Below, piece after piece: positions 5,484-25,821 of a stretch of DNA of 64,000 bases; the first letter of the stretch is position 1, and each line of letters starts with the position of its first letter. The notes beneath the pieces are model-generated. The model did not search any database and had not been told where the DNA came from. It saw nothing but the letters and a program-made list of their open reading frames with translations. This stretch comes from an uncultured Prevotella sp. Its GTDB lineage: Bacteria; Bacteroidota; Bacteroidia; Bacteroidales; Bacteroidaceae. The position numbers and the translations under genes are program-made. The stretch lies in the NCBI RefSeq assembly GCF_937863835.1, contig NZ_CALMHT010000072.1:26028-90027 (forward strand), read 5' to 3'.

Positions 5484-5491
5484 TAATTTTG
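5484..5491 (+). promoter_or_regulatory. Bacteroidetes-type -7 box (TAATTTTG) for the first PUL operon
   Basis: TAnnTTTG match 31 nt upstream of the ATG at 5523; no clear -33 TTTG. Confidence 0.4.
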
Positions 5492-5522: not shown

Positions 5523-8500
5523 ATGAAGTACAAATATCTATTAATGATAATGTGTGTTGTGACAACCAAAACCTTATGTATGTCTGCCGAAAAGAAATCA
5601 TGGCAAGGTATACATATTCCTTCTGTATATGAGATTAAGGAACATTTTGCGAATCCACCTTCCGAGTATGCCAGTCATGTGATTTGGGGATTGGAGGGCA
5701 ATATAACAAAACAAGTCATCCAACATGATCTGGATTCTATAAAGGCCAGGGGATTCAGGGCCGTGATTCTTGAAGCAGGGTATAATCTTCCTTGTAAGTA
5801 TTTGTCGGACGAATGGTTTAAGTTGATAAGACAAATAGTAAATGAGGCAAAGAAACGTTCATTAAAGGTTTGGATCATAGATGAAGGCAAATATCCAAGT
5901 GGTTTTGCAGGAGGAAAATTTTCTGAAGAACGTCCGGAGCTTCGAATGAAGGCACTTGTTAATGTTGATAACATAAATGTGAAGCCAGGAGATGTGTTGA
6001 AAGATTATCCGGTTGACAATGAAGTGATTAGTGCTGTTGCGGTCAATACGGCACGCAACAAGAATACCTATATTAAGATTGTCGATCACAAAATATCTTT
6101 TGTGGCAGGTCTGGACAATTGGACAATCCTGCTGGTAAAACCGGATTTCCGCACAGGACAGACAAGAAGTGTAAATAATCCGACAAGAGCAAAGGATACT
6201 AAGAATTCACAGATGGATTATCTTAATCCTATGGCTGTAAGACAATATATAGAATGGACCCATGAACAATACAAAAAATATATCGGCAACGAATTCGGAA
6301 AGACTGTATTAGGTTTCAGAGGTGATGAACCGGATTATTCGCATCTGCCGTTTACTCAAGCTTTACTTGATTCCTTTAAGGTAATGAAAGGTTATGAACC
6401 GACATTGATGCTTTCATCAATGTTTTCACCGATACAGACAATTGCCGAAAAACGATTTAAGGCTGATTATTGGGATGTTTGGTCGCGTCTGTTTGCCAAT
6501 AACTATTTTAAACAGGTGGCAGACTGGTGTGAAGCTAACAAATTGGCACATATTACGCATTTAAACAATGATCATAACATGCCTGTATGTGTCAAGGCGG
6601 AAGGCAATTTGTTCAGAGACTTGAGTAAGGTACAGATACCTGGTGTAGATGCGATATGGAATCAGATATGGCCTGATACTGTCAATGATTTTCCTAAATT
6701 TGCTTCATCTGTTGCCCATGTGTATGGCAAGCCACGTTCTTTCAGTGAGAGTTTTGCCGCTTATTATAGTACGCCGACGATTGCAGAAGCTAAATATGTA
6801 GTTGATTATCAGATGATACGGGGTATAAATTTCTTCGAGTTTATGTTCTGGATGGCTGGTAGTAAAGACCAGGGTTGGATGTCACAACCGGGAATGAAAC
6901 AATTGAATGATTATACGAACCGTACTGCCTATCTTCTTACCCAAGGTTCGCCGGGTGCTCGTATAGCCATGTATTATCCCACTAGCTCATTATGGATGGA
7001 TGATAATAATGTTGCGGAAAGAATAAAGAAAATATCACATCTGTTATTACAGCATCAGCGTGATTTCGATTATGTAGATGACGATGCCTTTTCTGAAGCA
7101 CTTTCAGTGAAATATAGTCGTCTTGAAAATAAAAGTGGGCAACGTTATTCCACATTGATAATACCTTCTTCAGATGCCATTTCAGTTAAAGCCTGGAGTA
7201 TGATCAGCCAATTTGAAAAACAAGGGGGTAAAGTGCTCTTTTGGGGGAATGTTCCGAGATATTTGGTAGATAAGACTTATACCAGTCTCACACCATTCGT
7301 ATTGGAAGATCATTCTTTGATCGAACCAACAGATGAGTATACATCGAATGTACAGGCTGCGATGCCGAATGCGGAAATTGTTGTAAATAATTTGCAACAA
7401 TTTGAACCGAACAACGCTCCAAGGCGTAGCGGTGATCCCAAACGTTTGCCTTTTGATCAGACTCTAGATATAAGATATACCCGAAGAATATTGCCGGAAG
7501 GTGAATTCTACTTCATTTTCAATGAAGGTCACCATAATCAGAAAATAACCATAGGAATGGATGCCATAGGCAATGTGTCAAAATGGAATACGCTGACAGG
7601 GGAGATTATGCCTATCCAATCTTTCGTAAAAGATAATCGCACATGGGTGAATCTTGAAATGAAGGAATATGAGACGGTCATGCTGAGCGTATCCTGTAAT
7701 GATAGGAAATATCTTGTGACCGATTACGGTGCTGTGGGGGATGGCGTGACCGTAAATACGAAATGTTTGCAAGCGACTATTGACAGTATATATTATCATG
7801 GTGGTGGAACAATGGTCGTACCAAGAGGTAACTTTGTAACAGGGGCTTTGTTTTTTCGGCAAGGAGTCAACCTATACTTGGAAAAAGATTCAAGACTGAC
7901 ATCCACTATCGTTGAAACAGATTTCCCCCTGATACCGACACGTTTTGAAGGTATAGAACAAGTTTGGAAGAGTGCACTCCTTAATTTTACAGATTGTAAA
8001 GGAGTGAGAGTCGAAGGTCAGGGTATGATAGATGGAAAAGGAGTGGAATGGAAATCACATCCTTTTGGAACAAGTGGTAGACCACGATTGATTTGCTTTA
8101 CACGCTGTGATGGAGGACAATTAAGAGGACTGAATCTTAAAGATCAGGCTTCATGGTGTATACATATACTCTATACCGATAGTTTTACAGTTGACGGAAC
8201 CGTTATACGTGCCGAACATACGATTCCGAGCTCAGATGGAATAGATATTGATTCATCGAAAGGTGTTGTAGTTAGAAATGCTGATATAGAAGATAATGAC
8301 GACTGTATATCAATCAAGTCGGGTAAGGATGATGATGGTCGCAGGGTAGGACGTCCATCCGAAAATATTCTCATAGAGAATTGCCGTTTTGGTTACGGTC
8401 ACAGTGGTGTAGATATAGGAAGTGAAGTGTCTGGCGACATCCGCAATGTTCTGGTACAGAATTGTCTGATGGACAAAGACAATGCAGGGAGTATCAGAAT

Positions 8501-8834
8501 CAAATCGCAACCAAGCAGGGGAGGGGTTATTGAAAACATCACATTCAGGGATATAACGCTCAATAATCCACGGCTAGTGTTTGATATAAATATGCGTTGG
8601 CGAATGGTCCCACCGATAGCACCGACTGCTGATAAATTGACCGAATTGAAGAACCTCCAGATTATCAATGTAAAAGGAACTTGTCGTTCGATGGGAGAAA
8701 TAAAAGGTTATGAACAATCCCCTATCACAGGAATCCTATTTAAGAATTGTGACATCAAAACGGAGAAAAATCTGATATTGACTAATACAGAAAATATAAA
8801 TCTGGAAGGATTGAAAGTTGATGTGAAATACTGA
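5523..8834 (+). CDS. Two-domain glycosidase: N-terminal GH106-like alpha-L-rhamnosidase module plus C-terminal GH28 polygalacturonase/rhamnogalacturonase module
   Basis: 1103 aa with signal peptide. N-terminus FANPPSEYASHVIWGLEGNITKQVIQHDLDSIKARGF, EWFKLIRQIVNEAKKRSLKVWI, GFRGDEPDY, FSESF resembles GH106. C-terminus YLVTDYGAVGDG...SSDGIDIDSS...DNDDCISIKSG...GYGHSGVDIGSE...SIRIKS is GH28. Confidence 0.78.
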   Translation: MKYKYLLMIMCVVTTKTLCMSAEKKSWQGIHIPSVYEIKEHFANPPSEYASHVIWGLEGNITKQVIQHDLDSIKARGFRAVILEAGYNLPCKYLSDEWFKLIRQIVNEAKKRSLKVWIIDEGKYPSGFAGGKFSEERPELRMKALVNVDNINVKPGDVLKDYPVDNEVISAVAVNTARNKNTYIKIVDHKISFVAGLDNWTILLVKPDFRTGQTRSVNNPTRAKDTKNSQMDYLNPMAVRQYIEWTHEQYKKYIGNEFGKTVLGFRGDEPDYSHLPFTQALLDSFKVMKGYEPTLMLSSMFSPIQTIAEKRFKADYWDVWSRLFANNYFKQVADWCEANKLAHITHLNNDHNMPVCVKAEGNLFRDLSKVQIPGVDAIWNQIWPDTVNDFPKFASSVAHVYGKPRSFSESFAAYYSTPTIAEAKYVVDYQMIRGINFFEFMFWMAGSKDQGWMSQPGMKQLNDYTNRTAYLLTQGSPGARIAMYYPTSSLWMDDNNVAERIKKISHLLLQHQRDFDYVDDDAFSEALSVKYSRLENKSGQRYSTLIIPSSDAISVKAWSMISQFEKQGGKVLFWGNVPRYLVDKTYTSLTPFVLEDHSLIEPTDEYTSNVQAAMPNAEIVVNNLQQFEPNNAPRRSGDPKRLPFDQTLDIRYTRRILPEGEFYFIFNEGHHNQKITIGMDAIGNVSKWNTLTGEIMPIQSFVKDNRTWVNLEMKEYETVMLSVSCNDRKYLVTDYGAVGDGVTVNTKCLQATIDSIYYHGGGTMVVPRGNFVTGALFFRQGVNLYLEKDSRLTSTIVETDFPLIPTRFEGIEQVWKSALLNFTDCKGVRVEGQGMIDGKGVEWKSHPFGTSGRPRLICFTRCDGGQLRGLNLKDQASWCIHILYTDSFTVDGTVIRAEHTIPSSDGIDIDSSKGVVVRNADIEDNDDCISIKSGKDDDGRRVGRPSENILIENCRFGYGHSGVDIGSEVSGDIRNVLVQNCLMDKDNAGSIRIKSQPSRGGVIENITFRDITLNNPRLVFDINMRWRMVPPIAPTADKLTELKNLQIINVKGTCRSMGEIKGYEQSPITGILFKNCDIKTEKNLILTNTENINLEGLKVDVKY

Positions 8835-8872: not shown

Positions 8873-11800
8873 ATGGAAGACAATGTTAAAACAAGTCTAT
8901 CTAATCAAAGGAGTATTATCCAGCGATTAATGTTTTTTGTTCTGTTCGCATTTTGTACAATAAGTACGTTTGCGCAGGGCAAAGTTACTGGAACCGTAGT
9001 AGATGCAACAGGTGAACCTGTCATCGGAGCTAGTGTCCTGGTAAGAGGAACGTCAAATGGTACAGTGACCGATCTGAATGGTAACTTTACTATTTCCAAT
9101 GCACAGAAGAATTCGACAATTGTCGTTTCTTATGTAGGTTACAAATCAGAAATTGTAGCTCTTTCCGGTCGCCAGGATGTTAAGATTACACTACAAGAGG
9201 ACAAAAAAGTACTTGACGAAATTGTAGTAGTAGGTTACGGTACAATGAAAAAATCGGATGTAACCGGTGCTATGGCGCGCGTGGGTGAGAAGGAACTGAA
9301 TGCTATGCCTGTTAAAGATGCTTTACAGGCTATGCAGGGAAAAACAGCCGGTGTCGACATTACATCAAGTCAACGTCCTGGTGAAACTGGAGGAATAAAC
9401 ATTCGTGGTGTGCGTTCATTGAATGCAAATCAAGGACCTTTGTATGTAGTAGATGGTATGGTATTGCAAAATTCTGACGGTATAAGTAATCTGAACCCTC
9501 AAGATATTGAGTCTATTGATGTGTTGAAAGATGCTTCAGCTACTGCTATATATGGTTCGCGTGGTGCCAATGGCGTAATCTTGGTTACGACGAAACATGG
9601 TAAAGATGGCAGAATGTCTTTGAACTATTCAGGTTCTGTTACTTTCGAAAAAATGTATTCTGTAGAAGATCAGATGAGTGCAGCGGAGTGGTTACAGTAT
9701 GCGCGTCTGGCTAAATATAATATGGGTACATACAAGTCAACAATCGGTAGTGACGGTTATGTGGTCCCGTCATTGACAGCTGACCAGTCTGTTTGGGGAT
9801 CTGTAACAGCTTCTTTTGCTAATATAGCACAAGCTTATGATTCGGATGGCAACTATGATGCCAGCAAAGTGGGTAGTTACGACTGGACATCTCTTGGTAA
9901 ACAAACAGGTATCACTCAAGAACATACGATTAGTGCAGCAGGTGGCACGGATAAATTCCAAGGTTATGGTTCTTTCGGATATCTGAAACAAAGAGGAACA
10001 CAACCTGGTCAGAATTATACACGATATACGGCCAAGGTAACATTCGACGGCTCTCCAAAACCATATTTTAAGATGGGAACGTCTATCAATGCTACTTATG
10101 GTGACCAGGATTATGGTTATAGTTTCCAGAAGTCTACGACAGGTTCCGGTGACTATTATAGTGCATTGCAGGCTATGTTACCATGGACTGTTCCTTATGA
10201 TGAAAATGGCGCATATATACGTAACCCGGCAGCAGGCGACGTCAATATCATCAACCCGATTAGTGAATTAAGTTATACAACTAATAACCGCAAGAATTTC
10301 AATGTAAGTGGAAGTTTCTATGGTCAATTGGATTTTGGTAAGATATGGGAGCCATTAGACGGTTTGAAGTATCGTATACAATTCGGTCCAGAGTTTAAAT
10401 TCTATCAGACAGGAACATTCTGGGATGGTGATGGTATAAATGGTGATGGCAATAATACTGCTAAATGGAATCATTATACGACACGTGCATGGACATTGGA
10501 TAACCTTGTATATTATGATAAGACAATAGCAAAAGATCATAAAATCGGTCTTACATTAATGCAATCTGCTTCCGGATATCATTATGATTATAGTACATCT
10601 TCAAGTGTTGGTGTGGCAATGGATACAGAATTATGGTATAACATGTCTTCTGGTACATATACATTAGGCACAGGATATTCTGAAAACCAGATGAGTTCAT
10701 ATATGATTCGTGCCAATTACGGTTATAAAGACAAATATATGTTGACAGCTTCTGTTCGTTGGGATGGTAGTTCCGTCTTAGCTGAAGGTCATAAATGGGC
10801 AAGTTTCCCATCAATGGCTTTAGCATGGCGTGCAGATCAGGAGAGCTTCTTAAGAAATGTTTCATGGCTCAGTCAGTTAAAGCTCCGTTTAGGTGTCGGT
10901 GTAACAGGTAACTCTGCAATCAGTGCATTTGGTACGAAAGGTGCAATCCAAGGTTTGTACTACAATTGGGGTACGACATCGTCATCCCTTGGTTATGTTG
11001 GATCTGATGCTTCATCTGCATCGCCTAATAAGATGCAGAACAATTCATTGGGTTGGGAACGTACAACGCAGTATAACCTCGGTCTAGATTATGGATTCCT
11101 GAATAGTAGAATTAATGGTAGTATTGATATCTATAAAACAAAGACGAAAGACTTGCTTATGTCAATGGTTATTCCAAGTATGACAGGTTATACAAGTACT
11201 TATGCCAATGTTGGTAAAACAAAAGGTTGGGGTATCGATTTCCAACTGAATGCGATTCCTGTTCAGACAAAAGATTTAACATGGACATTAGGGCTGACTT
11301 GGTCAAAGGATAAGAGTGAAATCGTTGAACTGTCAAATGGAAATACGCAAGACCTCACTAACAGATGGTTCGTAGGAGAAGAAATAGGTGTTTACTATGA
11401 TTATGTATATGATGGTATATGGAAAACATCTGAATCTGAAGAAGCTGCTACATACAATCGTAAACCAGGACAGATCAAAGTGAAGGATATTGATGGTGAC
11501 GGTAAAATAACGACTAGCGATAAAGCTATTGTAGGAACAGTTCGCCCAACATGGTCTGGTGGTATCACAAGTACTTTGAATTATAAGAATTGGGAATTCT
11601 CATTCTTCGTATATTCTCGTTGGGGATTCACCGTACCTAATGGTTCTTTGACTCTTGACGGTCGCTATATGCAACGTAAGATAGATTATTGGGTTGCAAA
11701 TGTTAATGAGAATGCGTATTATTATTCTCCAGGTATCAATGGTGAGTCAGCAGATGCATATCAGTCTTCTATGAATTATCAGGATGGTTCGTTCATTAAG

Positions 11801-12022
11801 TTGCGTAATGTATCATTAGGATATACGTTTACAAGTAAGCAATTGAAAGGAACTGGTATAAATAACCTGAAGGTATATGTTCAGGCAATGAATCCATGGA
11901 GAATATATTCTAAGTGTGATTATTTGGATACTGACTTGTTGAATTATTCCAATAATACAACAAACTATGGTTCAGAGACATCTTCACGTTCATTTGTTAT
12001 AGGACTTAATGTTGGATTTTAA
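8873..12022 (+). CDS. SusC/RagA-family TonB-linked outer membrane protein (pair 1)
   Basis: 1049 aa; GTVVDATGEPVIGASVLVRGT...GTVTDLNGNF carboxypeptidase-like domain, DEIVVVGYGTMKKSDVTGA, KDASATAIYGSRGANGVILVTTK plug motif, C-terminal aromatic residue. Confidence 0.97.
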   Translation: MEDNVKTSLSNQRSIIQRLMFFVLFAFCTISTFAQGKVTGTVVDATGEPVIGASVLVRGTSNGTVTDLNGNFTISNAQKNSTIVVSYVGYKSEIVALSGRQDVKITLQEDKKVLDEIVVVGYGTMKKSDVTGAMARVGEKELNAMPVKDALQAMQGKTAGVDITSSQRPGETGGINIRGVRSLNANQGPLYVVDGMVLQNSDGISNLNPQDIESIDVLKDASATAIYGSRGANGVILVTTKHGKDGRMSLNYSGSVTFEKMYSVEDQMSAAEWLQYARLAKYNMGTYKSTIGSDGYVVPSLTADQSVWGSVTASFANIAQAYDSDGNYDASKVGSYDWTSLGKQTGITQEHTISAAGGTDKFQGYGSFGYLKQRGTQPGQNYTRYTAKVTFDGSPKPYFKMGTSINATYGDQDYGYSFQKSTTGSGDYYSALQAMLPWTVPYDENGAYIRNPAAGDVNIINPISELSYTTNNRKNFNVSGSFYGQLDFGKIWEPLDGLKYRIQFGPEFKFYQTGTFWDGDGINGDGNNTAKWNHYTTRAWTLDNLVYYDKTIAKDHKIGLTLMQSASGYHYDYSTSSSVGVAMDTELWYNMSSGTYTLGTGYSENQMSSYMIRANYGYKDKYMLTASVRWDGSSVLAEGHKWASFPSMALAWRADQESFLRNVSWLSQLKLRLGVGVTGNSAISAFGTKGAIQGLYYNWGTTSSSLGYVGSDASSASPNKMQNNSLGWERTTQYNLGLDYGFLNSRINGSIDIYKTKTKDLLMSMVIPSMTGYTSTYANVGKTKGWGIDFQLNAIPVQTKDLTWTLGLTWSKDKSEIVELSNGNTQDLTNRWFVGEEIGVYYDYVYDGIWKTSESEEAATYNRKPGQIKVKDIDGDGKITTSDKAIVGTVRPTWSGGITSTLNYKNWEFSFFVYSRWGFTVPNGSLTLDGRYMQRKIDYWVANVNENAYYYSPGINGESADAYQSSMNYQDGSFIKLRNVSLGYTFTSKQLKGTGINNLKVYVQAMNPWRIYSKCDYLDTDLLNYSNNTTNYGSETSSRSFVIGLNVGF

Positions 12023-12038
12023 TTAAATAAGAATTATT

Positions 12039-14132
12039 ATGAATATTAATAAATATATAATCGGCACATTGTTGCTCGGTTCTACAGGAATAGGCTTGAC
12101 ATCCTGTAGTGACAGTTTTCTGGATGAAACGCAGGTTAACGCGTACAACACAGAATATTTTAAGACTCAGGCAGGTCTTGACGATTTAATAACGGGAACC
12201 TATTCAGGACTGAAGTTCCAGTTTAATTATATTTGGGCATGTGAGTTGTATACAATGGGTGTAGATGAATTTACAGATGCAAATAATCAGATTCCTGCAT
12301 ATAATGGTTACAGTTCTGTATTGAATTCTGATGAAACAGGTGCCAATAAACCATTGTGGGATAATATGTATAATCGTATAGAGAGTGCAAATACTGCTAT
12401 TCAGAATATTCCATTATACTATAGTTCTACAGCATCAACATATAACACCCGTTTGGGAGAAGCTTATTTTTTGAGAGCTTACTTCTATTTCCAATTGGTT
12501 AAACAATACGGAGGGGTACCATTGAAACTGACTCCTTCCAATGGCGTGTTGACTACTTATTATACTAGGAATTCACAAGAAGAATGTTTCGCACAAATCA
12601 TTTCTGACTTAGAAGAAGCATATACTTTATTGCCAACTACGGCTGCGGAAACAGGACGAATTACAAAGTATGCTGCTGCCCATTATTTGGCTAAGGCACA
12701 TCTGTTCCGTGCAAGTGAATTGTATTCCAGCTGGAATTCTAGTTACAAAGATGCAGATTTGGCTGCTGTGATCAAATACGGTAGTGAAGTGGTAACAGCT
12801 TGTCCTTTATGCACAGATTATAGTGCACTGTGGGATTATCAGAAAGCTAATGGCGATAATGAAAAAGTATCAGAGGTCGTTCTTGCTGCGCAGTTCTCTG
12901 ACGATCAGACTACATGGGGACGTTACGGAAACCAAATGCATTTGTATTATCCTTCGGTATATCAAGACTTAGCCGGTACTGTTCGTGATATATCAGGAGG
13001 ACGTGAATTCAGTTATGATCGCGCCACCAATTATACAATGGATGTATTTGATAGAGTTAACGATTCCCGTTTCTGGAAATCATTTATAACTTGTTATGGA
13101 TGTAACTCTACAGCAAAGGCTCCTACATGGACAGCTGCACAGTCAACTGCTGGTATATTGCCAAGTGGAGCGACTGTAGGCGGAAAACGTTTCTCAGGTA
13201 GTGAACTGGCCATAAAATATATTGTAAATGATGCCGGTGATACCCGTTATGCTGCTGTCTCAGGAGATGCAACAGGAGTAACGAAAAATGGAACGATGGA
13301 AAATACTCATACTTTTGTCCGCTATTTTAAAGGTGAAAATGACGCTTTCGTAGGACAGCATGGAAATGAAGGTTATTATGGAGTCCAAAAACGTTCTGTC
13401 GCATTGTCAAAATATCGCGATGGTTATCGTATAGCTATTGCCAGTCAGTTTGGTACCCGCGATGCTATATGTGCACGTTCAGCTGAGGATGTCCTGATGG
13501 TAGCCGAGGCTTATGCCCGTCAGAAAGATTATACGAACGCTATTACATATCTTAATAAGATACGAGATAGGGCCGCATTTACAGAAGGTGAAGATCGTAG
13601 CATAAGTATTGATGGTGGTCAGGCGTATAAGAATAATACTTATTGTACGGGTAAAGGTGGCGGATATTCTGCAGACGGAGCAATCTATTGGGGAAAGAAT
13701 ACATATTATGAATCCAATAATATGGAAGGAAGTGTGACAACAGCATCAACCAAGACTTCTATGCATTTGAATTCAATAAATGATATCCTGAATTCTGCAG
13801 TCGATAATAAGATATATAATGCATTAACGACAGCTACAGGTTACACTTCGAGTGGTGACGTTACTTATGATAAAGTAATGAACTTTATTCTAGATGAGCG
13901 TACCCGTGAATTATGTGGCGAATTATATCGTTGGGAAGATTTAGCACGAACAAAGACTTTACAGGCTCGTTTTAATGCTTTCAATGATGGAAATGGTCGT
14001 GAAGGAACATTTGATCCCGCAACACATTATTTCCGTCCTATACCACAGTCGTTCTTGGACGGTATAACAAATGAATCTGGCGCTAATCTGACAGATGAAG
14101 AAAAGGCTGCAATGCAGAACCCAGGATACTAA
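12039..14132 (+). CDS. SusD/RagB-family glycan-binding lipoprotein (pair 1)
   Basis: 697 aa; lipobox-like GLTSCSDSFLDE, RAYFYFQLVKQYGGVPL, KIRDRAAF, DERTRELCGELYRWEDLAR motifs. Confidence 0.95.
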   Translation: MNINKYIIGTLLLGSTGIGLTSCSDSFLDETQVNAYNTEYFKTQAGLDDLITGTYSGLKFQFNYIWACELYTMGVDEFTDANNQIPAYNGYSSVLNSDETGANKPLWDNMYNRIESANTAIQNIPLYYSSTASTYNTRLGEAYFLRAYFYFQLVKQYGGVPLKLTPSNGVLTTYYTRNSQEECFAQIISDLEEAYTLLPTTAAETGRITKYAAAHYLAKAHLFRASELYSSWNSSYKDADLAAVIKYGSEVVTACPLCTDYSALWDYQKANGDNEKVSEVVLAAQFSDDQTTWGRYGNQMHLYYPSVYQDLAGTVRDISGGREFSYDRATNYTMDVFDRVNDSRFWKSFITCYGCNSTAKAPTWTAAQSTAGILPSGATVGGKRFSGSELAIKYIVNDAGDTRYAAVSGDATGVTKNGTMENTHTFVRYFKGENDAFVGQHGNEGYYGVQKRSVALSKYRDGYRIAIASQFGTRDAICARSAEDVLMVAEAYARQKDYTNAITYLNKIRDRAAFTEGEDRSISIDGGQAYKNNTYCTGKGGGYSADGAIYWGKNTYYESNNMEGSVTTASTKTSMHLNSINDILNSAVDNKIYNALTTATGYTSSGDVTYDKVMNFILDERTRELCGELYRWEDLARTKTLQARFNAFNDGNGREGTFDPATHYFRPIPQSFLDGITNESGANLTDEEKAAMQNPGY

Positions 14133-14399: not shown

Positions 14400-15728
14400 A
14401 TGAAACTAAAACTGATACTGTTAACTGTATTGTTAATTTCATGTACAGCTAATGCTAAGAAGAAACAACAATTGTTTCCTGATGGCTCTGTAGTACCTGA
14501 ATGGTTTAATGATACAGCCAAGGTAGATATAACAAATCTAGGGAAAAAATACGTTATTACCGATTACGGAGTCAAGGACGATTCTACTATTGTACAAACA
14601 GAAGCAATACAGAAAGTTATTGATACAGCTGCTGCTGATGGCGGAGGTGTAATCGTAATACCTAAAGGAACATTCCTTAGTGGTTCTATATTCTTCAAAC
14701 AGGGCACACATCTCTATCTTTCAGAAGAAGCTACATTGAAAGGAATAGATGCCATCAAATATTATAAAATACTTCGAACGAGACTGGAAGGTAATACAAT
14801 CGATTATTTTGCAGCTTTGGTTAATGCTGACGGACTTGATGGTTTTACAATTTCAGGTAAAGGAACAATCAATGGTAACGGCACCCGTTTTTGGGAGGAA
14901 TTCTGGATACGTCGCAGAATAAATAAGGATTGTACCAATTTGGAAGCGATGCGTCCACGTCTGACTTATATATCCAACTGTAAAAATGTACAGGTACAGG
15001 ATGTTCACCTTATTAACAGCTCATTTTGGACGAATCATATTTATCGCAGTAATCATGTGAAATTCATAGATTGTTATATCTATGCACCTACATCAGGTAT
15101 TAAGGCACCAAGCAGTGATGCGATTGATATAGACTATTGTCACGATGTATTGGTACATGGATGTTATATGAGTGTGAACGATGATGCTGTTGTACTAAAA
15201 GGAGGAAAGGGAACTTGGGCAGATAAAGATACGACAAACGGTCCCAATTACAATGTCATAGTAGAGGATTGTAAATATGGTGTCGTTCATGGATGTCTGA
15301 CATTCGGTAGTGAATCTCTTAATGATCGTAATATCATATTTCGTCGTTGCGATGTTCACAATGCCAATCGTGTGATTTGGTTGAAAATGCGTCCAGATAC
15401 GCCTCAGCATTATGAATATCTTTCTGTTGAAGATGTAACAGGCGACTGTAGCAGTTTCTTGGTAGTACGTCCATGGACTCAATTCTATAATCTGGAAAAA
15501 AGAGATGATATGCCTATGTCAATGTGTAATAACATCAACTTTAAGAATATTAAGGTGAAAAGTGAAAATTTCATGGATGTAGGCAAATCCGATAAGTATA
15601 TTCTGCGAGACTTTCATTTTGAAAACTGCAATATCCAGAACGAAGCAGATTTATTAGAAGAAGGTACGATCCAGAATATGACATTGAAGAATGTCAAGAT
15701 GAATGGTAAGAAAGTCGAGAAATTTTAA
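14400..15728 (+). CDS. GH28-family glycoside hydrolase (variant active-site motifs)
   Basis: 442 aa, signal peptide; YVITDYGVKDDST, SSDAIDIDYC, NDDAVVLKGG, LTFGSES right-handed beta-helix signature; WLKM in place of canonical RIK. Confidence 0.85.
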   Translation: MKLKLILLTVLLISCTANAKKKQQLFPDGSVVPEWFNDTAKVDITNLGKKYVITDYGVKDDSTIVQTEAIQKVIDTAAADGGGVIVIPKGTFLSGSIFFKQGTHLYLSEEATLKGIDAIKYYKILRTRLEGNTIDYFAALVNADGLDGFTISGKGTINGNGTRFWEEFWIRRRINKDCTNLEAMRPRLTYISNCKNVQVQDVHLINSSFWTNHIYRSNHVKFIDCYIYAPTSGIKAPSSDAIDIDYCHDVLVHGCYMSVNDDAVVLKGGKGTWADKDTTNGPNYNVIVEDCKYGVVHGCLTFGSESLNDRNIIFRRCDVHNANRVIWLKMRPDTPQHYEYLSVEDVTGDCSSFLVVRPWTQFYNLEKRDDMPMSMCNNINFKNIKVKSENFMDVGKSDKYILRDFHFENCNIQNEADLLEEGTIQNMTLKNVKMNGKKVEKF

Positions 15729-15758: not shown

Positions 15759-18700
15759 ATGAATAAACAATTAACTAAGAAAACGATCCTGTCGATTGCC
15801 ATATTATTTATGGTAGTGGCGTTCCTGTCTTTCTTTAGTATCCAGTCTGCAAAGGCTGAAACTAATGAACTGCAACAGCAAAGCGTTTTAACAGGAACAG
15901 TTGTTGACGGCCATGGCGATCCTGTCATTGGCGCAACCGTAACGGTTGTTGGTGGTAGTGCCTCTCAAGGAACTATTACAGATTTTGATGGAGTTTTTAA
16001 GATTAAGGCCAAAGTTGGTGCCAAATTAAAAATTACGTATGTAGGTTATGATACACAGACAGTATCTGCACGCAACGGAATGAAAGTAACGTTGGCTGAA
16101 AACAGTACGATGTTACAGGGCGTAGAAGTCGTAGCTTATGGTGTACAAAAGAAAGTGACTGTCACCGGAGCTCTTTCGAGCGTTAAGGGTGAAGAACTGA
16201 CACGTACCCCGGTAAGTTCAGTCAATAACATCTTGGCTGGTCAGTTGAGTGGTATCACTTCCGTACAGTATTCTGGTGAACCTGGAAATGATGCAGCCAG
16301 CATATTTGTCCGTGGTCAAGCTACTTTTAATAATTCAGAGCCTCTCGTACAGGTTGATGGTGTAGAACGTTCTATGAGCGACATCAATCCAAACGAAATC
16401 GAAAGTATTACAGTATTGAAAGATGCTTCAGCTACTGCTGTATTCGGTGTCCGTGGTGCGAATGGCGTTATCCTGATAACGACCAAACGTGGTCAGGAAG
16501 GAAAAGCCAAGATATCGGCATCGACCAATTTTAGTATATTGACTCCTACAAAGATGGTGGAACAGGCAAATTCTTATGAATATGCTACATTCTACAATCA
16601 GATGCTTGCCAATGATGGTCAAAACCCGGCATTCTCGGATGTTGTACTTCAGAAATTTAAAGATCATTCAGATCCAATCCGTTATCCGGATACTAAATGG
16701 GATGATTATATCATGAAGAAATCAACACTGCAGACACAAAATGATATTAGTATATCAGGAGGAACAAAAAGTACACGCTATTTTATTAGTTTAGGTTATT
16801 TTACCCAAGGCGGTCTGTTTAAGGAATTTGGATTGCCATTTGATTACGGTTATCAATATAACAGGTTCAATTATCGTAGTAACTTGGATATAGACATCAC
16901 CAAAACTACAACGATTTCATTCAATGTCGCAGGTAATGTAAGCACTGGTAATCGTCCATTGACAAGTGGAGGAGCTTCCGGTCTTATTAAAGCGATGTAT
17001 CAGGCTACACCTTTCTCTAGTCCGGGACTGGTAGATGGAAGACTGGTTACCACAGCCACCGATTATACTGATATGGGTACAGACCAGTTGCCTTTTGTTG
17101 GAGGATCGGGTATGACATATTATGCGTATTCTGGAAGTCGTGCCGGCTTTACCCAGACTAATACCAATAAGAGTCAGATGGACTTGCAGTTGACACAAAA
17201 GTTAGATTTCCTTACTAAGGGCTTGAGCTTTAAAATAAAAGGTTCATACAACAGTACATATTATGTGTATAAGAGTGGAACGCTTGAAAGAGCGACATAT
17301 ACTCCTGTCTTACTTTCAAACGGAACGCTCGGTTATAAGAAGTCTGGTACAGACGGAACTCAGATCAATTATAGTGATGAGGATACAGGTAAAGCGCGTG
17401 ACTGGTATTTCGAGACATCTCTTAATTATGCCCGCTCTTTCGGAGCTCATAATGTTTCCGCTTTATTATTGTACAACCAGAGTAAAACGTATTATCCTTC
17501 AGCATATTCAGATATACCTCATGGATATGTCGGATTGGTTGGACGTGTCACTTATGACTGGAAAAGCCGTTATTTAGCTGAATTTAATATAGGACATAAT
17601 GGTTCGGAAAACTTTGCTGAAGGCAAACGCTTCGGAACATTCCCAGCTGGTTCTGTTGGATGGATTGCCAGTGAGGAACCTTTCTGGAAGCCGATTAAGA
17701 AATATGTCAGTTTCTTGAAATTGCGTGCTAGCTGGGGTCTTGTCGGTAATGACCAATATGGTAGTGACAACTCAACACGTTTCATGTATTTGGCAGATCC
17801 TTATTATGTTAACAGCGGTAGTTATATATCTCGTGGCGGATACGCTTATAACTTCGGTGTGAATAACAGTACTGCTACGAAAGGTGCTTACGAGGGAACA
17901 AAAAACAACCCGAATGTAACATGGGAAAAAGCCTTCAAACAAGATTATGGTATTGATATCAATTTCTTAGATGATCGTCTGCGTGGCACATTTGATTATT
18001 ATCATGAACATCGTACGGATATCCTTCTTAATGACTATACAGCACCAAGCATCATCGGATTTACTGTACCATTGGCTAATCTTGGTTCTGTGAATAGTTG
18101 GGGATGGGAACTGTCTTTGAAGTGGCAGGATAAGATAGGAAAAGATTTCCGTTATTGGATAGGTGCAAATATTTCATACAACCAGAACAAAGTGTTGGAA
18201 GAGAAAGAAAGACCGTATGCCAATGAATATCAATATAATAAGGGACATCGTATAGGTGCCCGTAGCCAATATTTGTTCTTTGAATATTACGAAGAAGCCT
18301 CAGGTAACAACATCGGAACGGCAGGTCGCTACAAAGCAAAATATGGAACCGATATGCCGACACAGCTTGTGTCAGACCTTAAACCAGGTGATTGTGTTTA
18401 TGTGGATCTTGACAAGGACGGTAAAATATCACCAGATGATATGAGTAAGGATTATGGACGTACTGATGATCCTGAATATATGGCTGGTTTTAATCTGGGA
18501 TTCTCATGGAACCATTGGTCATTTAATACACAGTGGACAGCTGCTTGGAATGTCAGCCGCATGCTTTCAGACGTATTTATGCAACCGTTCTTCAGTGCGT
18601 CAAATACGACACAGGGTGGACTCCTGAAATATCAAGTGGAACATACATGGACTACAGCGAATCCGTCTCAAGATGCAGAATATCCACGTGCTACATGGAC

Positions 18701-18965
18701 GAATGCCTCTCAGAACTATGTCGCTTCTACATTATATGAAAAAGATTCCAAATACTTACGACTTAAAACTTTGCAGATTGCTTATGATTTCCAACTTCCG
18801 ATTATGAAAACACTTGGACTGAGTCAATTGCAAGTTGCTCTCAGCGGTTATAACCTCTTGACATTCACTCCTTATTTGTGGGGTGATCCAGAGACAAGAT
18901 CTAGTAGTTCTCCTTCATATCCATTACAGAGAACATACACAATAAGTCTAAAGGTCGGTTTCTAA
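15759..18965 (+). CDS. SusC/RagA-family TonB-linked outer membrane protein (pair 2)
   Basis: 1068 aa; GTVVDGHGDPVIGATVTVVGG, KDASATAVFGVRGANGVILITTKRG. Confidence 0.97.
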   Translation: MNKQLTKKTILSIAILFMVVAFLSFFSIQSAKAETNELQQQSVLTGTVVDGHGDPVIGATVTVVGGSASQGTITDFDGVFKIKAKVGAKLKITYVGYDTQTVSARNGMKVTLAENSTMLQGVEVVAYGVQKKVTVTGALSSVKGEELTRTPVSSVNNILAGQLSGITSVQYSGEPGNDAASIFVRGQATFNNSEPLVQVDGVERSMSDINPNEIESITVLKDASATAVFGVRGANGVILITTKRGQEGKAKISASTNFSILTPTKMVEQANSYEYATFYNQMLANDGQNPAFSDVVLQKFKDHSDPIRYPDTKWDDYIMKKSTLQTQNDISISGGTKSTRYFISLGYFTQGGLFKEFGLPFDYGYQYNRFNYRSNLDIDITKTTTISFNVAGNVSTGNRPLTSGGASGLIKAMYQATPFSSPGLVDGRLVTTATDYTDMGTDQLPFVGGSGMTYYAYSGSRAGFTQTNTNKSQMDLQLTQKLDFLTKGLSFKIKGSYNSTYYVYKSGTLERATYTPVLLSNGTLGYKKSGTDGTQINYSDEDTGKARDWYFETSLNYARSFGAHNVSALLLYNQSKTYYPSAYSDIPHGYVGLVGRVTYDWKSRYLAEFNIGHNGSENFAEGKRFGTFPAGSVGWIASEEPFWKPIKKYVSFLKLRASWGLVGNDQYGSDNSTRFMYLADPYYVNSGSYISRGGYAYNFGVNNSTATKGAYEGTKNNPNVTWEKAFKQDYGIDINFLDDRLRGTFDYYHEHRTDILLNDYTAPSIIGFTVPLANLGSVNSWGWELSLKWQDKIGKDFRYWIGANISYNQNKVLEEKERPYANEYQYNKGHRIGARSQYLFFEYYEEASGNNIGTAGRYKAKYGTDMPTQLVSDLKPGDCVYVDLDKDGKISPDDMSKDYGRTDDPEYMAGFNLGFSWNHWSFNTQWTAAWNVSRMLSDVFMQPFFSASNTTQGGLLKYQVEHTWTTANPSQDAEYPRATWTNASQNYVASTLYEKDSKYLRLKTLQIAYDFQLPIMKTLGLSQLQVALSGYNLLTFTPYLWGDPETRSSSSPSYPLQRTYTISLKVGF

Positions 18966-19002
18966 GATGTTTTTCATTTGGAATATTAAAATAAAATATG
19001 AT

Positions 19003-21015
19003 ATGAAACTAAATAAATTTTTTATCGGAGCTGTCATGGCTACAGCAACATGTATTGGACTCGGTTCCTGTACAGATACTATAGCTTTTGGAAATTCTTT
19101 CTTGGAAAAAGCTCCTGGTGGAACAGTAACAGAAGATACTGTTTTCAATAATCCAGAATATACTCGCCAATTCCTAGCAGGTGTATATTCTTTACAATAT
19201 TATGGTTTACCTTGGCGTAGTTCTTCTTCCTCTCCTCTTACAGCCAGTTATTGGAATGGTGAAGTGGAAGCCCTTTCAGATTGTTTCCAATTATATTTCC
19301 AGAGTTCTGTCTTGTATAAGCAGTATTATACAGGTGCGTTTACTGCGTCTACTGGCGGCGGTGTATATGGATTCCTGACAGAAAACACATGGGAGTTGGT
19401 ACGTAGAGCATACAAACTAATAGAGAATGTAAGTAAGGTCCCTAATATGGAACAGACAGAGAAAGACCGCTTGGTAGCAGAGGCAAAATGTCTTATAGCT
19501 TCTACCTATTTCAATATGTTCCGCCATTATGGAGGTCTGCCTATTATCACAGGTTCTTTCTCTGGCTTGGATGGGTCTTATAATTTGCCACGTGCTTCAG
19601 TAGAGAATACAGTTAAGTTTATGGTTGGTTTATTAGATGATGCTTCTAAGACGAGCTCTTTACCTTGGTCCTTTACAAGTGATGAAGCTACTTCGGAAGT
19701 AGGTCATTGGACAAAGGCAGGCGCAATGGCATTAAAGTGTAAAATACTTCAATTTGCCGCTTCACCATTGTTTAATGCCGACCAAGGATATTATGGAGGT
19801 ACCACAGATGCTGAAAAAGACAGTCTTGTATGGTATGGAGGTTATGATAAGAGTCGTTGGACAGCATGTAAGACAGCATGTAAAGCCTTTTTTGACGCCC
19901 TTGCTGCAAACGGTGGTTACAGTCTTGTACAACCCACAGCAAATACACAAGAGGCATATCGTTATGCATACCGTTCTGCATATTGGAATGAGAACAGTTC
20001 TGAAATACTGCATTCAGTACGTGTAACCAATTCTACCCGTGATTCAAAATATCAGTGGTTGTATTTGAGAGGTAATGACCGTCTGTCATATTGTCTGACT
20101 GAGGAGTATGCAGAGATGTTCCCTTGGGCAGATGGTACACCATTTGATTGGGATGAGGCTGAAAAAGCTGGTAAATTAGACCAGATGTTTGTCAAGGGAG
20201 ATACAGTTGCCAAACAGCAACTTTTGCAAAATCGTGTATACACCCGTGATCCCCGTCTATATGAAACAGCTGATGTCAATGGTGCATTGCAGGTTATTAA
20301 TGATGCGGATGGTTCCACATCTGGTGCCAATTATGAAATATGGGTAGGAGGTACTCAGGGTGGTACAAGTCAGAAGAATGAATCCGGCGCGTATGCGACA
20401 AGTTATCGTCTCAACAAATATGTTGTTGGCGACCTCATGTATACATCAATGCATTATCCACAATGGGATGTACTACGCCTGTCAGACCTCTATCTGGTCT
20501 ATGCCGAAGCTTTATTACAATCTGATGATAATAACACAGAAGCTCTTAAATATGTAGATGCAGTTCGTGCCCGTGTAGGACTTAAAGGTCTTGCAGCCAG
20601 CAACCCATCTAAGAATTTAACATCCAATAAAGCAAATCTTTTAGAGGAGATCTTGCGTGAACGTGCCTGTGAATTAGGTTTTGAAGATACACGCTATTTT
20701 GATATGATCCGTTATAAACGTACAGACCTGTTCAAAAAAGAACTACATGGATTGCGTATTTACCGTTTGGTCAAAAATACGACGACAGGTGTTTGGGAAA
20801 GATCGGCGACACAATGGTATAATGGTGACAGAAAAACTGCAAAACAGGGACAACCCTCATATTATGAACCGTCTCATTTTGATTATGAGAAATTTGTAAT
20901 CGCAAATGGTACCCGTGCGTGGTGGACGGATTATGATAATAAATGGTTGTTACAACCATTCCCTACGACTGAACTGAATAAGGGATATGGACTCATACAG
21001 AATCCTGGTTGGTGA
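19003..21015 (+). CDS. SusD/RagB-family lipoprotein (pair 2)
   Basis: Lipobox GLGSCTD; AKCLIASTYFNMFRHYGGLPI; LREILRERACELGFEDTRYFDMIRYK-like SusD C-terminus. ATG at 19003 (MKLNKFF) preferred over the track start at 18967. Confidence 0.93.
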   Translation: MKLNKFFIGAVMATATCIGLGSCTDTIAFGNSFLEKAPGGTVTEDTVFNNPEYTRQFLAGVYSLQYYGLPWRSSSSSPLTASYWNGEVEALSDCFQLYFQSSVLYKQYYTGAFTASTGGGVYGFLTENTWELVRRAYKLIENVSKVPNMEQTEKDRLVAEAKCLIASTYFNMFRHYGGLPIITGSFSGLDGSYNLPRASVENTVKFMVGLLDDASKTSSLPWSFTSDEATSEVGHWTKAGAMALKCKILQFAASPLFNADQGYYGGTTDAEKDSLVWYGGYDKSRWTACKTACKAFFDALAANGGYSLVQPTANTQEAYRYAYRSAYWNENSSEILHSVRVTNSTRDSKYQWLYLRGNDRLSYCLTEEYAEMFPWADGTPFDWDEAEKAGKLDQMFVKGDTVAKQQLLQNRVYTRDPRLYETADVNGALQVINDADGSTSGANYEIWVGGTQGGTSQKNESGAYATSYRLNKYVVGDLMYTSMHYPQWDVLRLSDLYLVYAEALLQSDDNNTEALKYVDAVRARVGLKGLAASNPSKNLTSNKANLLEEILRERACELGFEDTRYFDMIRYKRTDLFKKELHGLRIYRLVKNTTTGVWERSATQWYNGDRKTAKQGQPSYYEPSHFDYEKFVIANGTRAWWTDYDNKWLLQPFPTTELNKGYGLIQNPGW

Positions 21016-21060
21016 TAATATGTTTGAAGTCGAAATACATTCAATAAAACGATAAAATAT

Positions 21061-23883
21061 ATGAAAAGAAATAATATCATAGTGTTTGCAGTATTAGCAG
21101 GTTTCTGTCTGCCTGCTGCAGCACAGCAATATAAAGATTCACTTAAAAATGATCGATTTGAAGATCAACTGATCGATGTTGGTGCAAACAGGACATTCAA
21201 GCTTAGTGAATCTACCGCATCTGTTTCTCTGATAACCAACAAGGAAACAGATAAGCGCAGTGCAAAAAATATAGGCAATTCCATTCTGGGACAAGGTCTG
21301 GGACTTATATCCTTGCAGAATTCAGGTAATTATGCAGCTGCTAATCCCACTTTCTATGTACGTGGATTACAGAGTCTCTCTGGTAGTACACCTTTAATAT
21401 TAGTAGACGGAATAGAACGTAGTATAGACAACATTACACCTGAAGAAGTTGAAAATGTTCAGATACTGAAAGATGCCGCAGCTGTATCTCTGTATGGATA
21501 TAAAGGTGCCAACGGTGCTGTTCTTATTACGACAAAACGAGGAAAATACAATTCTAAGTCGATAACAGTAACATTAGACCATGTCTTTAATTTTATGGCC
21601 AACAAACCAAAGTTTGTTGATGCTTCAACTTATGCGAAAGCGATGAATGAAGCTTATGCGAACGATGGTTACGGGAATAATTATCGTTATTCGGATAATG
21701 AGATATCTGCTTTCCAAAGTGGTCAATACCCATATTATTATCCAAATGTTGATTGGGTAAATGAAACATTCAAGGATAATGCCGCCACGAACAAAATTAA
21801 CGCCCAGTTTACTGGTGGTGGTCAGAAGTTCCGTTATTATGCAATGATAGACCTTTTGTCAGATAAAGGTTTTATCAAGAACCCTAATGAGAATGATGGT
21901 TATTCGACACAGAATAAGTATGTCAAAGGCAACATGCGTGCAAACATTGATGTAGATTTGACACCTACAACCAAAATTACAGCCAATATCCTTGGCGTAC
22001 TTCTTGAAACAAGTCGTCCAGGTTCTAATGTAGATCTTTGGGATATGATATATTCTACGCCTTCTGCTGCATATCCGATCAAGTCGGAAAGTGGAAACTG
22101 GGGTGGTAGTAATACATGGGCTGGAACTTCAAACCCTGTCGCACAATCGGTTGGAGCCGCTTATTATAAGAATCATACCCGTAGCTTGTTCTCTGATTTG
22201 ACTCTCCGTCAGGATCTTTCCGGATGGGTAAAAGGTTTGGCTGCCCAAGCTCGCGCCAGTTATGATAATACATCTAACATATATGAAAACCATAGTAAGA
22301 CATATATATACAACGTGACCGTTCCGACATGGGCTGCCGATGCTACTGAACCTACAGCTACTGTAAGCACTTATGGAACTGACTCTGAAATGGGTACAGG
22401 AGCAGATGTAAATACATTCTCACGCCGTTTCCATTTTGATTTCGGTTTCGATTATCAGAACAAATTCGGAGACCATTCTATATATAGTCAGTTAAAATGG
22501 GATTATGAATACGAAGAAGCCAATGGTTATAATACAACAATTTATCGCCAGAATTTCTCATGGTTCAATCATTATGGATATAAAGAGCGCTATTTTGCAG
22601 ACCTTTCACTTGTATACTCAGGTTCTAGTAGATTAGCTCCTAGTACGAAGTGGAGTTTTTCTCCAACAGTTTCAGCTGCATGGGTGATCTCAAAAGAAAA
22701 TTTCATGAAAAATATTTCATGGGTCGATTTCTTGAAACTTCGTGCATCTTTTGGTATCATCAATCAAGACTTACTTCCTAACAGCACATGGACATACTAC
22801 GTTCAGCAGTATCAGGTATCCGGTGGTACATATCCATTCAATTCAGGATGGGGATCAGATTTCGGACGTACCTATCTTGACCGTCTTGCTACGACAAATC
22901 CATCTCATGAAAAAGCTTACAAATATAATGTCGGTGTAGATGCTACCTTGTTCCATGGTCTTAATGTTACGATCGATGGATATTATCAGCGCCGTTCTGA
23001 TATTTGGGTTGAAGCATCAGGTAAATATACAGCACTCGTCGGTGTAGATGCACCTTATGAGAACGCAGGTATAGTAGACAGTTGGGGCGCAGAATTAGGA
23101 TTGGACTATTCTAAACAGATAGGACAGGTTACATTCAATGTAGGAGGAAATCTTAATTATAATAGAAATAAGATTAAGGAACAGTTGGAAGAGCCCCGTC
23201 TATACAGCAATTTAGTACAGACAGGAAACTCATTGAATCAGATATATGGTCTGAAAGCAATCGGTTTCTTCAAGGACGATGCCGATATAGCCAATAGTCC
23301 TACTCAGACATTCTCTACAGTAAAGCCGGGTGATATCAAGTATGAAGATGTCAATGGTGATAATACAATTGATGCCAATGACAAAGTAGCAATCGGATAT
23401 TCTACAGTAGCACCTCAGTTGTATTATTCTATTCATCTGGGTGCTGAATGGAAGGGCTTCGGTATTGATATGATGTTCCAGGGAACAGGACGTTATTCAG
23501 CAATCCTGAATACAAAGAGTATGTATTGGCCACTTATTAATAATACGACCATTTCCCAGTATTATTATGACAATCGTTGGACATCAGACAACCAGAATGC
23601 AAAATTTCCACGTTTAAGTTCTGTAAGCAATGCGAACAACTATCAGACTAATACAATCTGGTTGGCCGACCGTTCTTTCTTAAAACTGCGCAATGTGGAA
23701 GTTTACTATAATTTTGCAAAGTGTTTGTTGCAGAAAACGAAAGTCGTAAATGCTGCGAAGATTTATGTTCGTGGAACAGATTTGTTCTGTATAGATCATC
23801 TGGATGTTTCTGATCCTGAATCTTATGGAGCTACGAACCCGCTTACACGTAGTGTTGTAGTAGGACTCTCTGTTACTTTCTAA
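21061..23883 (+). CDS. SusC/RagA-family TonB-dependent receptor without the N-terminal carboxypeptidase-like domain (pair 3)
   Basis: 940 aa; signal peptide then directly plug region FYVRGLQSLSGSTPLILVDGIERSIDNITPEEVENVQILKDAAAVSLYGYKGANGAVLITTKRG. Confidence 0.94.
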   Translation: MKRNNIIVFAVLAGFCLPAAAQQYKDSLKNDRFEDQLIDVGANRTFKLSESTASVSLITNKETDKRSAKNIGNSILGQGLGLISLQNSGNYAAANPTFYVRGLQSLSGSTPLILVDGIERSIDNITPEEVENVQILKDAAAVSLYGYKGANGAVLITTKRGKYNSKSITVTLDHVFNFMANKPKFVDASTYAKAMNEAYANDGYGNNYRYSDNEISAFQSGQYPYYYPNVDWVNETFKDNAATNKINAQFTGGGQKFRYYAMIDLLSDKGFIKNPNENDGYSTQNKYVKGNMRANIDVDLTPTTKITANILGVLLETSRPGSNVDLWDMIYSTPSAAYPIKSESGNWGGSNTWAGTSNPVAQSVGAAYYKNHTRSLFSDLTLRQDLSGWVKGLAAQARASYDNTSNIYENHSKTYIYNVTVPTWAADATEPTATVSTYGTDSEMGTGADVNTFSRRFHFDFGFDYQNKFGDHSIYSQLKWDYEYEEANGYNTTIYRQNFSWFNHYGYKERYFADLSLVYSGSSRLAPSTKWSFSPTVSAAWVISKENFMKNISWVDFLKLRASFGIINQDLLPNSTWTYYVQQYQVSGGTYPFNSGWGSDFGRTYLDRLATTNPSHEKAYKYNVGVDATLFHGLNVTIDGYYQRRSDIWVEASGKYTALVGVDAPYENAGIVDSWGAELGLDYSKQIGQVTFNVGGNLNYNRNKIKEQLEEPRLYSNLVQTGNSLNQIYGLKAIGFFKDDADIANSPTQTFSTVKPGDIKYEDVNGDNTIDANDKVAIGYSTVAPQLYYSIHLGAEWKGFGIDMMFQGTGRYSAILNTKSMYWPLINNTTISQYYYDNRWTSDNQNAKFPRLSSVSNANNYQTNTIWLADRSFLKLRNVEVYYNFAKCLLQKTKVVNAAKIYVRGTDLFCIDHLDVSDPESYGATNPLTRSVVVGLSVTF

Positions 23884-23922
23884 TGAGGAAAGATTATATA
23901 AAGAAAGAAAAAATTCAAAATA

Positions 23923-25680
23923 ATGAATATTATGAAACTAAATAAAATAATAGGCGTTGGTCTTGGAGTTTTAGCTCTTGCTTCATGTAATGACAAGATG
24001 GACTACAAAGAATATAACGCATACGATAAGGATTATGTCAGTTCAAGTATGACTTATGTAGGCAACTTGATGACTGATATATATAATTATGCAGATTATG
24101 ATTTCGGACAGAATTTCGGTGGAGCTATTTTAGGTTCTGCTACGGATGAGAGCGAGTTTGCTACATCAGGTAACTCTATACAGGATCTTTATGATGGTGC
24201 ATGGAGTCCAACCAATGCCCATAGTACAATGTGGACTAACATGTATTCGGGTATTGCCGACTGTAATCTCGTGCTGCACGAGTTCCAAGGCTTGACATTC
24301 TCTGCAGACTCGCTTAACAGTGATTATGAACAGCAGATATATCGCTATCAGAACTACAAATGGGAATCACGTTTCTGGAGAGCATATTTCTATTTTAATC
24401 TTGTTCGCCAGTATGGGGCTGTACCTTTGATAACAAAGAGTGTCGTTGGAGGGAATGCTGATGAGATCAATAGTATGTCAAGAACATCGTCCGATTCCAT
24501 ATACAAATTTATCATGGACGAATGTGACATCGTAAAGGATTCTATCATAGCGGATTATAGTAATCTTGGAAATATGGCTTTACCAAGTAGTGCCGCAGAA
24601 ACAGGTAGAGCGGATAAGTTGGCTGTACTAGCCTTACGTGCGCGTGCCGCTTTATATTGGGCGAGTCCTCTGTTTAATACTTCAAATGATAAACAACGCT
24701 ATCATACAGCTGCCCTGTATACAAAGGAATTGTTGGATGCATGTGATGCACGTGGTAAGAAGTTGGCAGCAGATTATTCATCATTATGGGCTACTGATAA
24801 CTGGAGTAACGCCTCTGTTACATGTGAAATCATATTTGGTCGCCGTATTTACGGAACCGGTACCGGTGGTACATCTGCAGTTTTCGAAAAATACAATTAT
24901 CCAATAGGCATTGAAGGCGGAGCAGGTGGAAACTGTCCGACCCAGAATCTTGTTGATGCTTATGAAATGCAGAAGACAGGTTTGGGTATCAATGAGTCTG
25001 GTAGTGGATATAAAGAAAGTGATCCATATACTGGCCGTGATCCAAGATTTACAGCCACTGTAGCAAAGAACGGTGATACATGGCCTACTGTATATAAGAC
25101 TGCGTTGCAGACTTATTATGGAGGAACTAATGGAGAACCTGTTGCCAGTGCCACTCCTACAGGATATTATGTTAAGAAACTCTGTCATGGAGCCATCAAT
25201 TTAGCTGCAAATTCTAAGTATGCTGCCGATAACCATACATGGATAACTTTCCGTCTAGGTGAGTTCTATCTGAATATGGCAGAGGCATTGTATAAATATC
25301 TTGGTTCTCCTACGGCTACAAGTTCTGAGTTCCCTACATCCGCGATTGAATATATCAACAAGGTGCGTGCACGTGTTAGTATGCCAAACTTCCCGACAAC
25401 GCTGAGTAATGATGCTTTTTGGGCAAAATATACAAATGAGCGAATGGTCGAATTAGCTTTTGAAGGACATCGTTTTTGGGATGTTCGTCGCTGGAAGGAA
25501 GCTGACAAGTATTTCAAGAGCATACAGGAAATGAAACTTACGAAGAATGATGACGGAACAATCACATACACCCGTAAAACTGTCAGTCGTCAGTGGGCAG
25601 ATAAAATGTATCTGTTCCCTATACCACAGACTGAGATAATGAAAAACAAGAATCTGACCCAGAATACCGGTTGGGAATAA
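23923..25680 (+). CDS. SusD/RagB-family lipoprotein (pair 3)
   Basis: 585 aa; LASCNDKMDY lipobox, RAYFYFNLVRQYGAVPLI, ERMVELAFEGHRFWDVRRWKEADKYF. Confidence 0.95.
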   Translation: MNIMKLNKIIGVGLGVLALASCNDKMDYKEYNAYDKDYVSSSMTYVGNLMTDIYNYADYDFGQNFGGAILGSATDESEFATSGNSIQDLYDGAWSPTNAHSTMWTNMYSGIADCNLVLHEFQGLTFSADSLNSDYEQQIYRYQNYKWESRFWRAYFYFNLVRQYGAVPLITKSVVGGNADEINSMSRTSSDSIYKFIMDECDIVKDSIIADYSNLGNMALPSSAAETGRADKLAVLALRARAALYWASPLFNTSNDKQRYHTAALYTKELLDACDARGKKLAADYSSLWATDNWSNASVTCEIIFGRRIYGTGTGGTSAVFEKYNYPIGIEGGAGGNCPTQNLVDAYEMQKTGLGINESGSGYKESDPYTGRDPRFTATVAKNGDTWPTVYKTALQTYYGGTNGEPVASATPTGYYVKKLCHGAINLAANSKYAADNHTWITFRLGEFYLNMAEALYKYLGSPTATSSEFPTSAIEYINKVRARVSMPNFPTTLSNDAFWAKYTNERMVELAFEGHRFWDVRRWKEADKYFKSIQEMKLTKNDDGTITYTRKTVSRQWADKMYLFPIPQTEIMKNKNLTQNTGWE

Positions 25681-25761: not shown

Positions 25762-25821
25762 TATGCTATATAAGATGTAGTGAAGAACGGCTCAAAATCT
25801 AATAAACAATCATTAATAAAA

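Follow-up and report, generated by a model that had tools for sequence, protein, structure and literature searches.

The window, a 64,000-nucleotide stretch of DNA from an uncultured Prevotella sp., encodes a GH106 module and a GH28 module in one polypeptide, a fusion that is genuine and conserved in many Bacteroidales relatives. Rhamnogalacturonan-I (RG-I) is the pectin backbone of alternating Rha and GalA, and its breakdown is usually pictured as the work of separate rhamnosidases and galacturonidases acting in turn; the fused protein is probably a periplasmic two-headed exo-glycosidase that removes Rha and GalA in alternation from RG-I oligosaccharides and that arose by fusion of an operon pair.

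The fused reading frame and its distribution

The two modules occupy a single 1103-aa ORF at 5523-8834 (+), in one frame with one terminal stop. As the earlier note had proposed, a GH106 and a complete GH28 are joined in one exported protein: Pfam Glyco_hydro_106 (PF17132) matches residues 198-699 with 132.2 bits against a cut-off of 29 (E 3.1e-38; profile positions 240-740 out of 743), Glyco_hydro_28 (PF00295) matches residues 808-1087 with 131.6 bits against a cut-off of 22.9 (E 4.6e-38), and the protein begins with an N-terminal signal helix. The window protein and its relatives have a signal peptide and no obvious lipobox, which points to a periplasmic location. The Bacteroidota -7 promoter consensus is TAnnTTTG, and TAATTTTG at 5484-5491 (+), about 32 bases upstream of the start codon, is a candidate promoter by sequence match to it.

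The GH106 module comprises residues 38-724 (5634-7694, +) and the GH28 module residues 728-1099 (7704-8819, +); the boundary lies at about residue 724/728, in a junction of roughly seven residues (721-727; 7683-7703, +). Both modules are delimited by Pfam, by Foldseek and by an AlphaFold2 model of the full chain (input, a 35-sequence alignment; mean pLDDT 86.1, pTM 0.83), and the model shows a GH106 barrel and a right-handed GH28 beta-helix, with Foldseek matches to both families. In the model the GH106 beta-sandwich ends at residue 724 and the GH28 beta-helix starts at 729, leaving almost no linker, and block pLDDT is above 90 across the junction; junction length is 7-9 residues in the window's group and 13-17 in the Prevotellaceae group. 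The modelled GH106 half consists of a (beta/alpha)8 barrel with a beta insertion past strand 3, an alpha/beta domain (~481-620) and the beta-sandwich (~650-724); in a Foldseek search, this half of the two-module chain matches rhamnosidase 6q2f (E 1.5e-29) and 5mqm (BT0986; E 1.3e-27). The first ~200 residues can also be assigned to GH106, because the N-terminus of 5mqm aligns with residues 36-118 and the NCBIfam BT4145 model with residues 91-726.

A full-length fusion is present in 6 of 399 same-family genomes, the window's own included, and is thus sporadic; the five further copies show 57-71% identity. A scan of species genomes for the GH106 module gave 80 loci, and our GH28 tree holds 43 fused entries (roughly 41 different proteins), which come from Bacteroidales wherever named. 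Carriers include Phocaeicola vulgatus ATCC 8482, Bacteroides ilei, Segatella baroniae B14 and uncultured Prevotella, and mean column identity is 48% across the 35 aligned fusions. The five further full-length copies and the roughly 41 distinct fused proteins rule out misassembly, a frame artefact or chance. Copies broken over two frames occur in P. sartorii (L096) and in one Rikenellaceae (L034).

Active sites of the two halves

All of the motifs that had been named as candidates are present, with NPPSEY (44-49), GDEPDY (267-272) and FSESF (407-411) in the GH106 half and SDGID (904-908), DDC (926-928), GHS (959-961) and RIK (992-994) in the GH28 half. When aligned to 5mqm, the pair D268-E269, where barrel strand 4 ends (6324-6329), takes the places of BT0986 D458 and S459; H346 (6558-6560) takes that of E538, D376 (6648-6650) that of E561, and E409 on strand 7 (6747-6749; all +) that of the general base E593. 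The last equation was judged by eye from the ungapped YGK-x5-E spacing against 5mqm, the HMM alignment being gapped at strand 7, and it agrees with PMC6828813. All five residues are invariant in the 35 fusions, the GH106 active-site residues are identical between fusions and stand-alone relatives, and D268-E269 is found in all full-length stand-alone relatives aligned. Position 271, the place of BT0986 E461, is not conserved (D, E or A in fusions), and the D-S-x-E of the BT0986/BT4145 type, with the acid E461 at strand 4, is absent, the fusion having D-E-P-D instead. Because D-E-P at strand 4 occurs with E409 at strand 7, E269 is likely the general acid.

As described in PMC6828813, Ram106B and the Niabella GH106 keep the BT0986 base E593, with D-E in place of D458-S459, H in place of E538 and D in place of E561; the Ram106B/GH106_dist proteins (Thermotoga, Caldicellulosiruptor, Thermoclostridium, Niabella) have the same D-E, H, D, E pattern as the fusion. 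D268-E269, H346 and D376 fit this description, and by the published residue pattern the GH106 half carries the active-site signature of that subgroup. In GDEPDY and FSESF, which the earlier note named as candidate catalytic regions, the predicted catalytic residues are present and invariant, but the pattern of this half is D-E, H and D and not the D-S-x-E of BT0986/BT4145. The Ram106B/GH106_dist enzymes are described in PMC6828813 as stand-alone and were assayed on pNP-rhamnoside, whereas the fusion module is joined to GH28. BT4145, the RG-I alpha-L-rhamnosidase of B. thetaiotaomicron, shares its Pfam family and proposed reaction with the fusion GH106, but the BT4145 model (NF049897) gives the latter 90.5 bits against an equivalog cut-off of 1300. 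The window genome's own BT4145-type protein differs from the fusion in having NDSYEV instead of GDEPD at strand 4 and in ending with a jelly-roll domain; four other long GH106 proteins likewise have NDSYEV at strand 4.

The GH28 signature is complete, with three catalytic Asp, the GH motif and RIK. D905 in SDGID (8235-8237) and the catalytic pair D926-D927 (8298-8303) are invariant in the 35 fusions, as are R992 and K994 of the substrate-binding motif R992-I-K994 (8496-8504), and H960 in GHS/GHG (8400-8402; all +) is present in 33 of 35. The closest solved structures by Foldseek are 5olp, a galacturonidase, and 3jur, an exo-polygalacturonase of T. maritima, suggesting that the modelled GH28 half is exo-acting. 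The galacturonidases BT4153, BT4146 and BT4155 have the same fold and catalytic motifs, and the BT4153-type model (NF049899) spans most of the module, but these are stand-alone proteins and the fusion GH28 is far under each equivalog cut-off, with 195.3 bits against 650 for BT4153 and 197 bits against 800 for BT4155, two models that tie for the window's GH28. The module is matched by the polygalacturonase models PglA and PglB as well. The NCBIfam cut-offs rule out membership of the fusion modules in the BT4145 or BT4153 groups, and because both modules lie so far below them a substrate is not transferable from BT4145, BT4153 or BT4155.

Modular enzymes with a single catalytic half, the other serving substrate binding or protein stability, occur in general; such a division is very improbable here, given that the residues of both active sites vary little or not at all in 35 divergent fusions and that those of GH106 are the same in stand-alone relatives.

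The RG-I locus and the proposed reaction

The fusion gene heads an RG-I utilization locus, where it opens a run of + strand genes spaced by 38, 16, 267, 30, 1, 45, 39 and 99 bp. Directly downstream, across gaps of 38 and 16 bp, is a first SusC/SusD pair (8873-14132, identified by Pfam), then a GH28 rhamnogalacturonidase of the BT4153 type (14400-15728; 705 bits, cut-off 650), two further SusC/SusD pairs (15759-25680, by profile matches) and a GH28 rhamnogalacturonidase of the BT4146 type (25780-27237; 548 bits, cut-off 500), with a GH2 enzyme of the same locus at 27839-30712 (all +). Past this series come GH2 genes, an alpha-galactosidase-type gene, hybrid two-component regulators, a PL11 rhamnogalacturonan lyase (40047-44426, +; 1459 aa) and a GH115. 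The PL11 protein has a long C-terminal extension, some 800 residues beyond the lyase domain, with only weak PATR and bactofilin-like matches; adjoining the GH115, 46788-49763 encodes a protein of 991 aa that contains a DUF4450 domain and weakly matches an MGH1-like glycoside hydrolase. A pooled Pfam scan of 72 neighbours in nine fused loci gave a modest enrichment (GH2 4, GH88/105 3, SusD 3, PL11 1).

The P. vulgatus orthologue, 57% identical, lies between PL11 and GH105 and two genes downstream of PvCE15, in the series SusC, SusD, GH78-type, CE15, PL11, fusion, GH88/105; the CE15 of this locus matches PvCE15 (PDB 8q6s), and the locus is apparently pectin-targeting according to the accessible text of PMC10807430. 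That text lists both GH28 and GH106 for loci of this kind and makes no mention of a GH106-GH28 fusion. It cites OtCE15C, a CE15-GH106 fusion in which GH106 is likewise joined to a pectin-related catalytic domain, but the partner there is an esterase and not, as GH28 is here, an enzyme acting on the next sugar of the backbone. OtCE15C is the only GH106 fusion mentioned in the accessible text of the papers examined, and no description or biochemistry of a GH106-GH28 fusion was found in that of the open papers searched; the families are known, and their arrangement and partner relationship appear undescribed. Because P. vulgatus carries the fusion gene, an entry for the two modules together is probable in CAZy or PULDB.

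The most economical role for the fusion would be exo-removal of Rha and GalA. PL11 lyase would cut RG-I and the SusC/D pairs would take up the fragments; with the unsaturated end sugar removed, Rha would become the non-reducing terminus, the GH106 half would hydrolyse the terminal alpha-L-Rha-(1,4)-GalA bond to expose GalA, and the GH28 half would hydrolyse alpha-D-GalA-(1,2)-Rha to expose the next Rha, so that a single periplasmic polypeptide would run the two steps in repeated cycles. We infer both activities, the exact substrate, the location and the alternation. The two-step trimming is favoured by the invariance of the predicted catalytic residues of both halves in 35 fusions, by the matches of the model to GH106 rhamnosidases and GH28 galacturonidases, and by the scheme for B. 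thetaiotaomicron, in which GH106 BT4145 and GH28 BT4146, BT4153 and BT4149 act one after another to finish RG-I oligosaccharides (PMC8002723). RG-I as the target is favoured by the BT4153- and BT4146-type rhamnogalacturonidases, three SusC/D pairs and PL11 of the window locus, by the PL11 and GH105 flanking the fusion in the P. vulgatus locus described as pectin-targeting (PMC10807430), and by the best match of stand-alone partner GH28s to the BT4153 model; the reading as a whole is also favoured by the sister relationship of the fused GH28 clade to same-strand GH28s near stand-alone GH106 genes.

Besides the low scores against the equivalog models, three observations count against the RG-I exo-enzyme reading. 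Each of the two steps already has an enzyme of its own in this genome; the fused GH106 clade includes eight members without GH28, one of them cut by a contig end; and the GH28 family includes exo-polygalacturonases, one of which (3jur) the GH28 half resembles. Both halves might instead be active in a non-alternating way, GH106 trimming Rha and GH28 serving as an exo-polygalacturonase on homogalacturonan stretches, with fragments from RG-I/homogalacturonan junctions as the target of the protein. The nearest structures (5olp and 3jur) and the PglA and PglB matches accord with this; we regard it as unlikely, as the window and P. vulgatus loci are RG-I-like (PL11, GH105, rhamnogalacturonidases) and the partner stand-alone GH28s best fit the BT4153 rhamnogalacturonidase model.

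As to the separate enzymes, the window genome has stand-alone BT4145, BT4153 and BT4146 equivalogs, to whose backbone-trimming set the fusion is thus an addition; the BT4145-type GH106 is encoded elsewhere in the genome, with genes for a PcRGLX-type lyase and a GDSL esterase as neighbours, and GH88/105-family genes are also present elsewhere in it. The retention of the fusion next to these equivalogs would be explained if its target were another pectic structure that contains Rha and GalA, side chains of RG-II for example, or RG-I ends whose decoration or acetylation puts them beyond the reach of BT4145/BT4153-type enzymes, and GDSL esterase domains fused to a partner GH28 in L094 are in keeping with this; with neighbour genes that are RG-I enzymes rather than RG-II ones, it is quite improbable. 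Under the favoured RG-I reading, the fusion may be suited to short or decorated fragments, alongside the separate enzymes. It is conceivable, although doubtful, that the modelled active sites are held rigidly enough to pass an RG-I chain end between them without release, with GH106 chemistry unlike that of BT0986; the short junction, its high-confidence modelling and its conserved length in the window's group are compatible with such channelling.

A conserved fusion in common gut Bacteroidales, together with its source operon pair, names the likely partner of each half. According to PMC6828813, the natural substrate of Ram106B-type rhamnosidases is still to be found, and the fusion supplies a concrete substrate hypothesis for rhamnosidases with this type of active site. 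It is also a direct test case for whether joined exo-enzymes trim an alternating polymer faster, and a possible single-protein tool for RG-I saccharification.

A second pectin fusion is encoded in the same genome (L118:165-2696, G000:C43), an 843-aa ORF with GH28 (208-432) and GH88/105 (474-840).

Origin of the fusion

Quick LG+G4 trees were made for both modules. In the GH106 tree every fused row falls within one 49-member clade (support 97), in which eight unfused rows are nested. In the GH28 tree the fused modules form one clade (99), and its sister (98 together) consists of 17 GH28 genes, each with a stand-alone short GH106 gene in the vicinity; Hymenobacter, Mucilaginibacter, Proteiniphilum and KSB1 are among the carriers. 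All 17 pairs are same-strand, with gaps from -4 to 6016 bp (below 100 bp in 8 of 17), and 9 have the GH106-then-GH28 order of the fusion, as in Hymenobacter cavernae (gap 39 bp) and Mucilaginibacter galii (151 bp). The best score of the stand-alone partner GH28s is with the BT4153 rhamnogalacturonidase model, and the surroundings of the unfused pairs hold pectin enzymes (GH28, GDSL esterases, PL11). Because the sister of the fused GH28 clade is a set of separate GH28s near stand-alone short GH106 genes, the fusion most simply joined two genes of an existing operon pair, once, in Bacteroidales.

Several independent fusions were considered, since the GH106 tree needs 7 label changes, but one gain with several losses is preferred because the fused GH28 modules form a single clade. 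The partner GH28 was not found in the fetched stretch around six of the nested unfused GH106 genes (L030, L033, L035, L037, L045 and L047), which suggests that the GH28 module was later lost in these members.

The earlier note had placed GH28 where GH106 enzymes carry C-terminal beta-sandwich domains. As history this fails: the stand-alone GH106 proteins outside the fused clade are mostly ~700-730 aa and stop at the endpoint of the fused module, and a sandwich (650-724) remains before GH28, so a swap of sandwich domains for GH28 is ruled out and the short GH106 form preceded the fusion. The deep outgroup GH106 rows are longer (849-925 aa).

Two further arrangements were seen among the relatives. 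In a Tidjanibacter MAG (L043:9887-15591) a stand-alone short GH106 lies directly before a fused GH106-GH28, the two belonging to different tree branches; in a Bacteroidia MAG (L094:7182-9896) a GDSL esterase region, matched in two stretches, is fused to a partner-clade GH28, in an ORF that overlaps a stand-alone GH106 gene by 4 bases.
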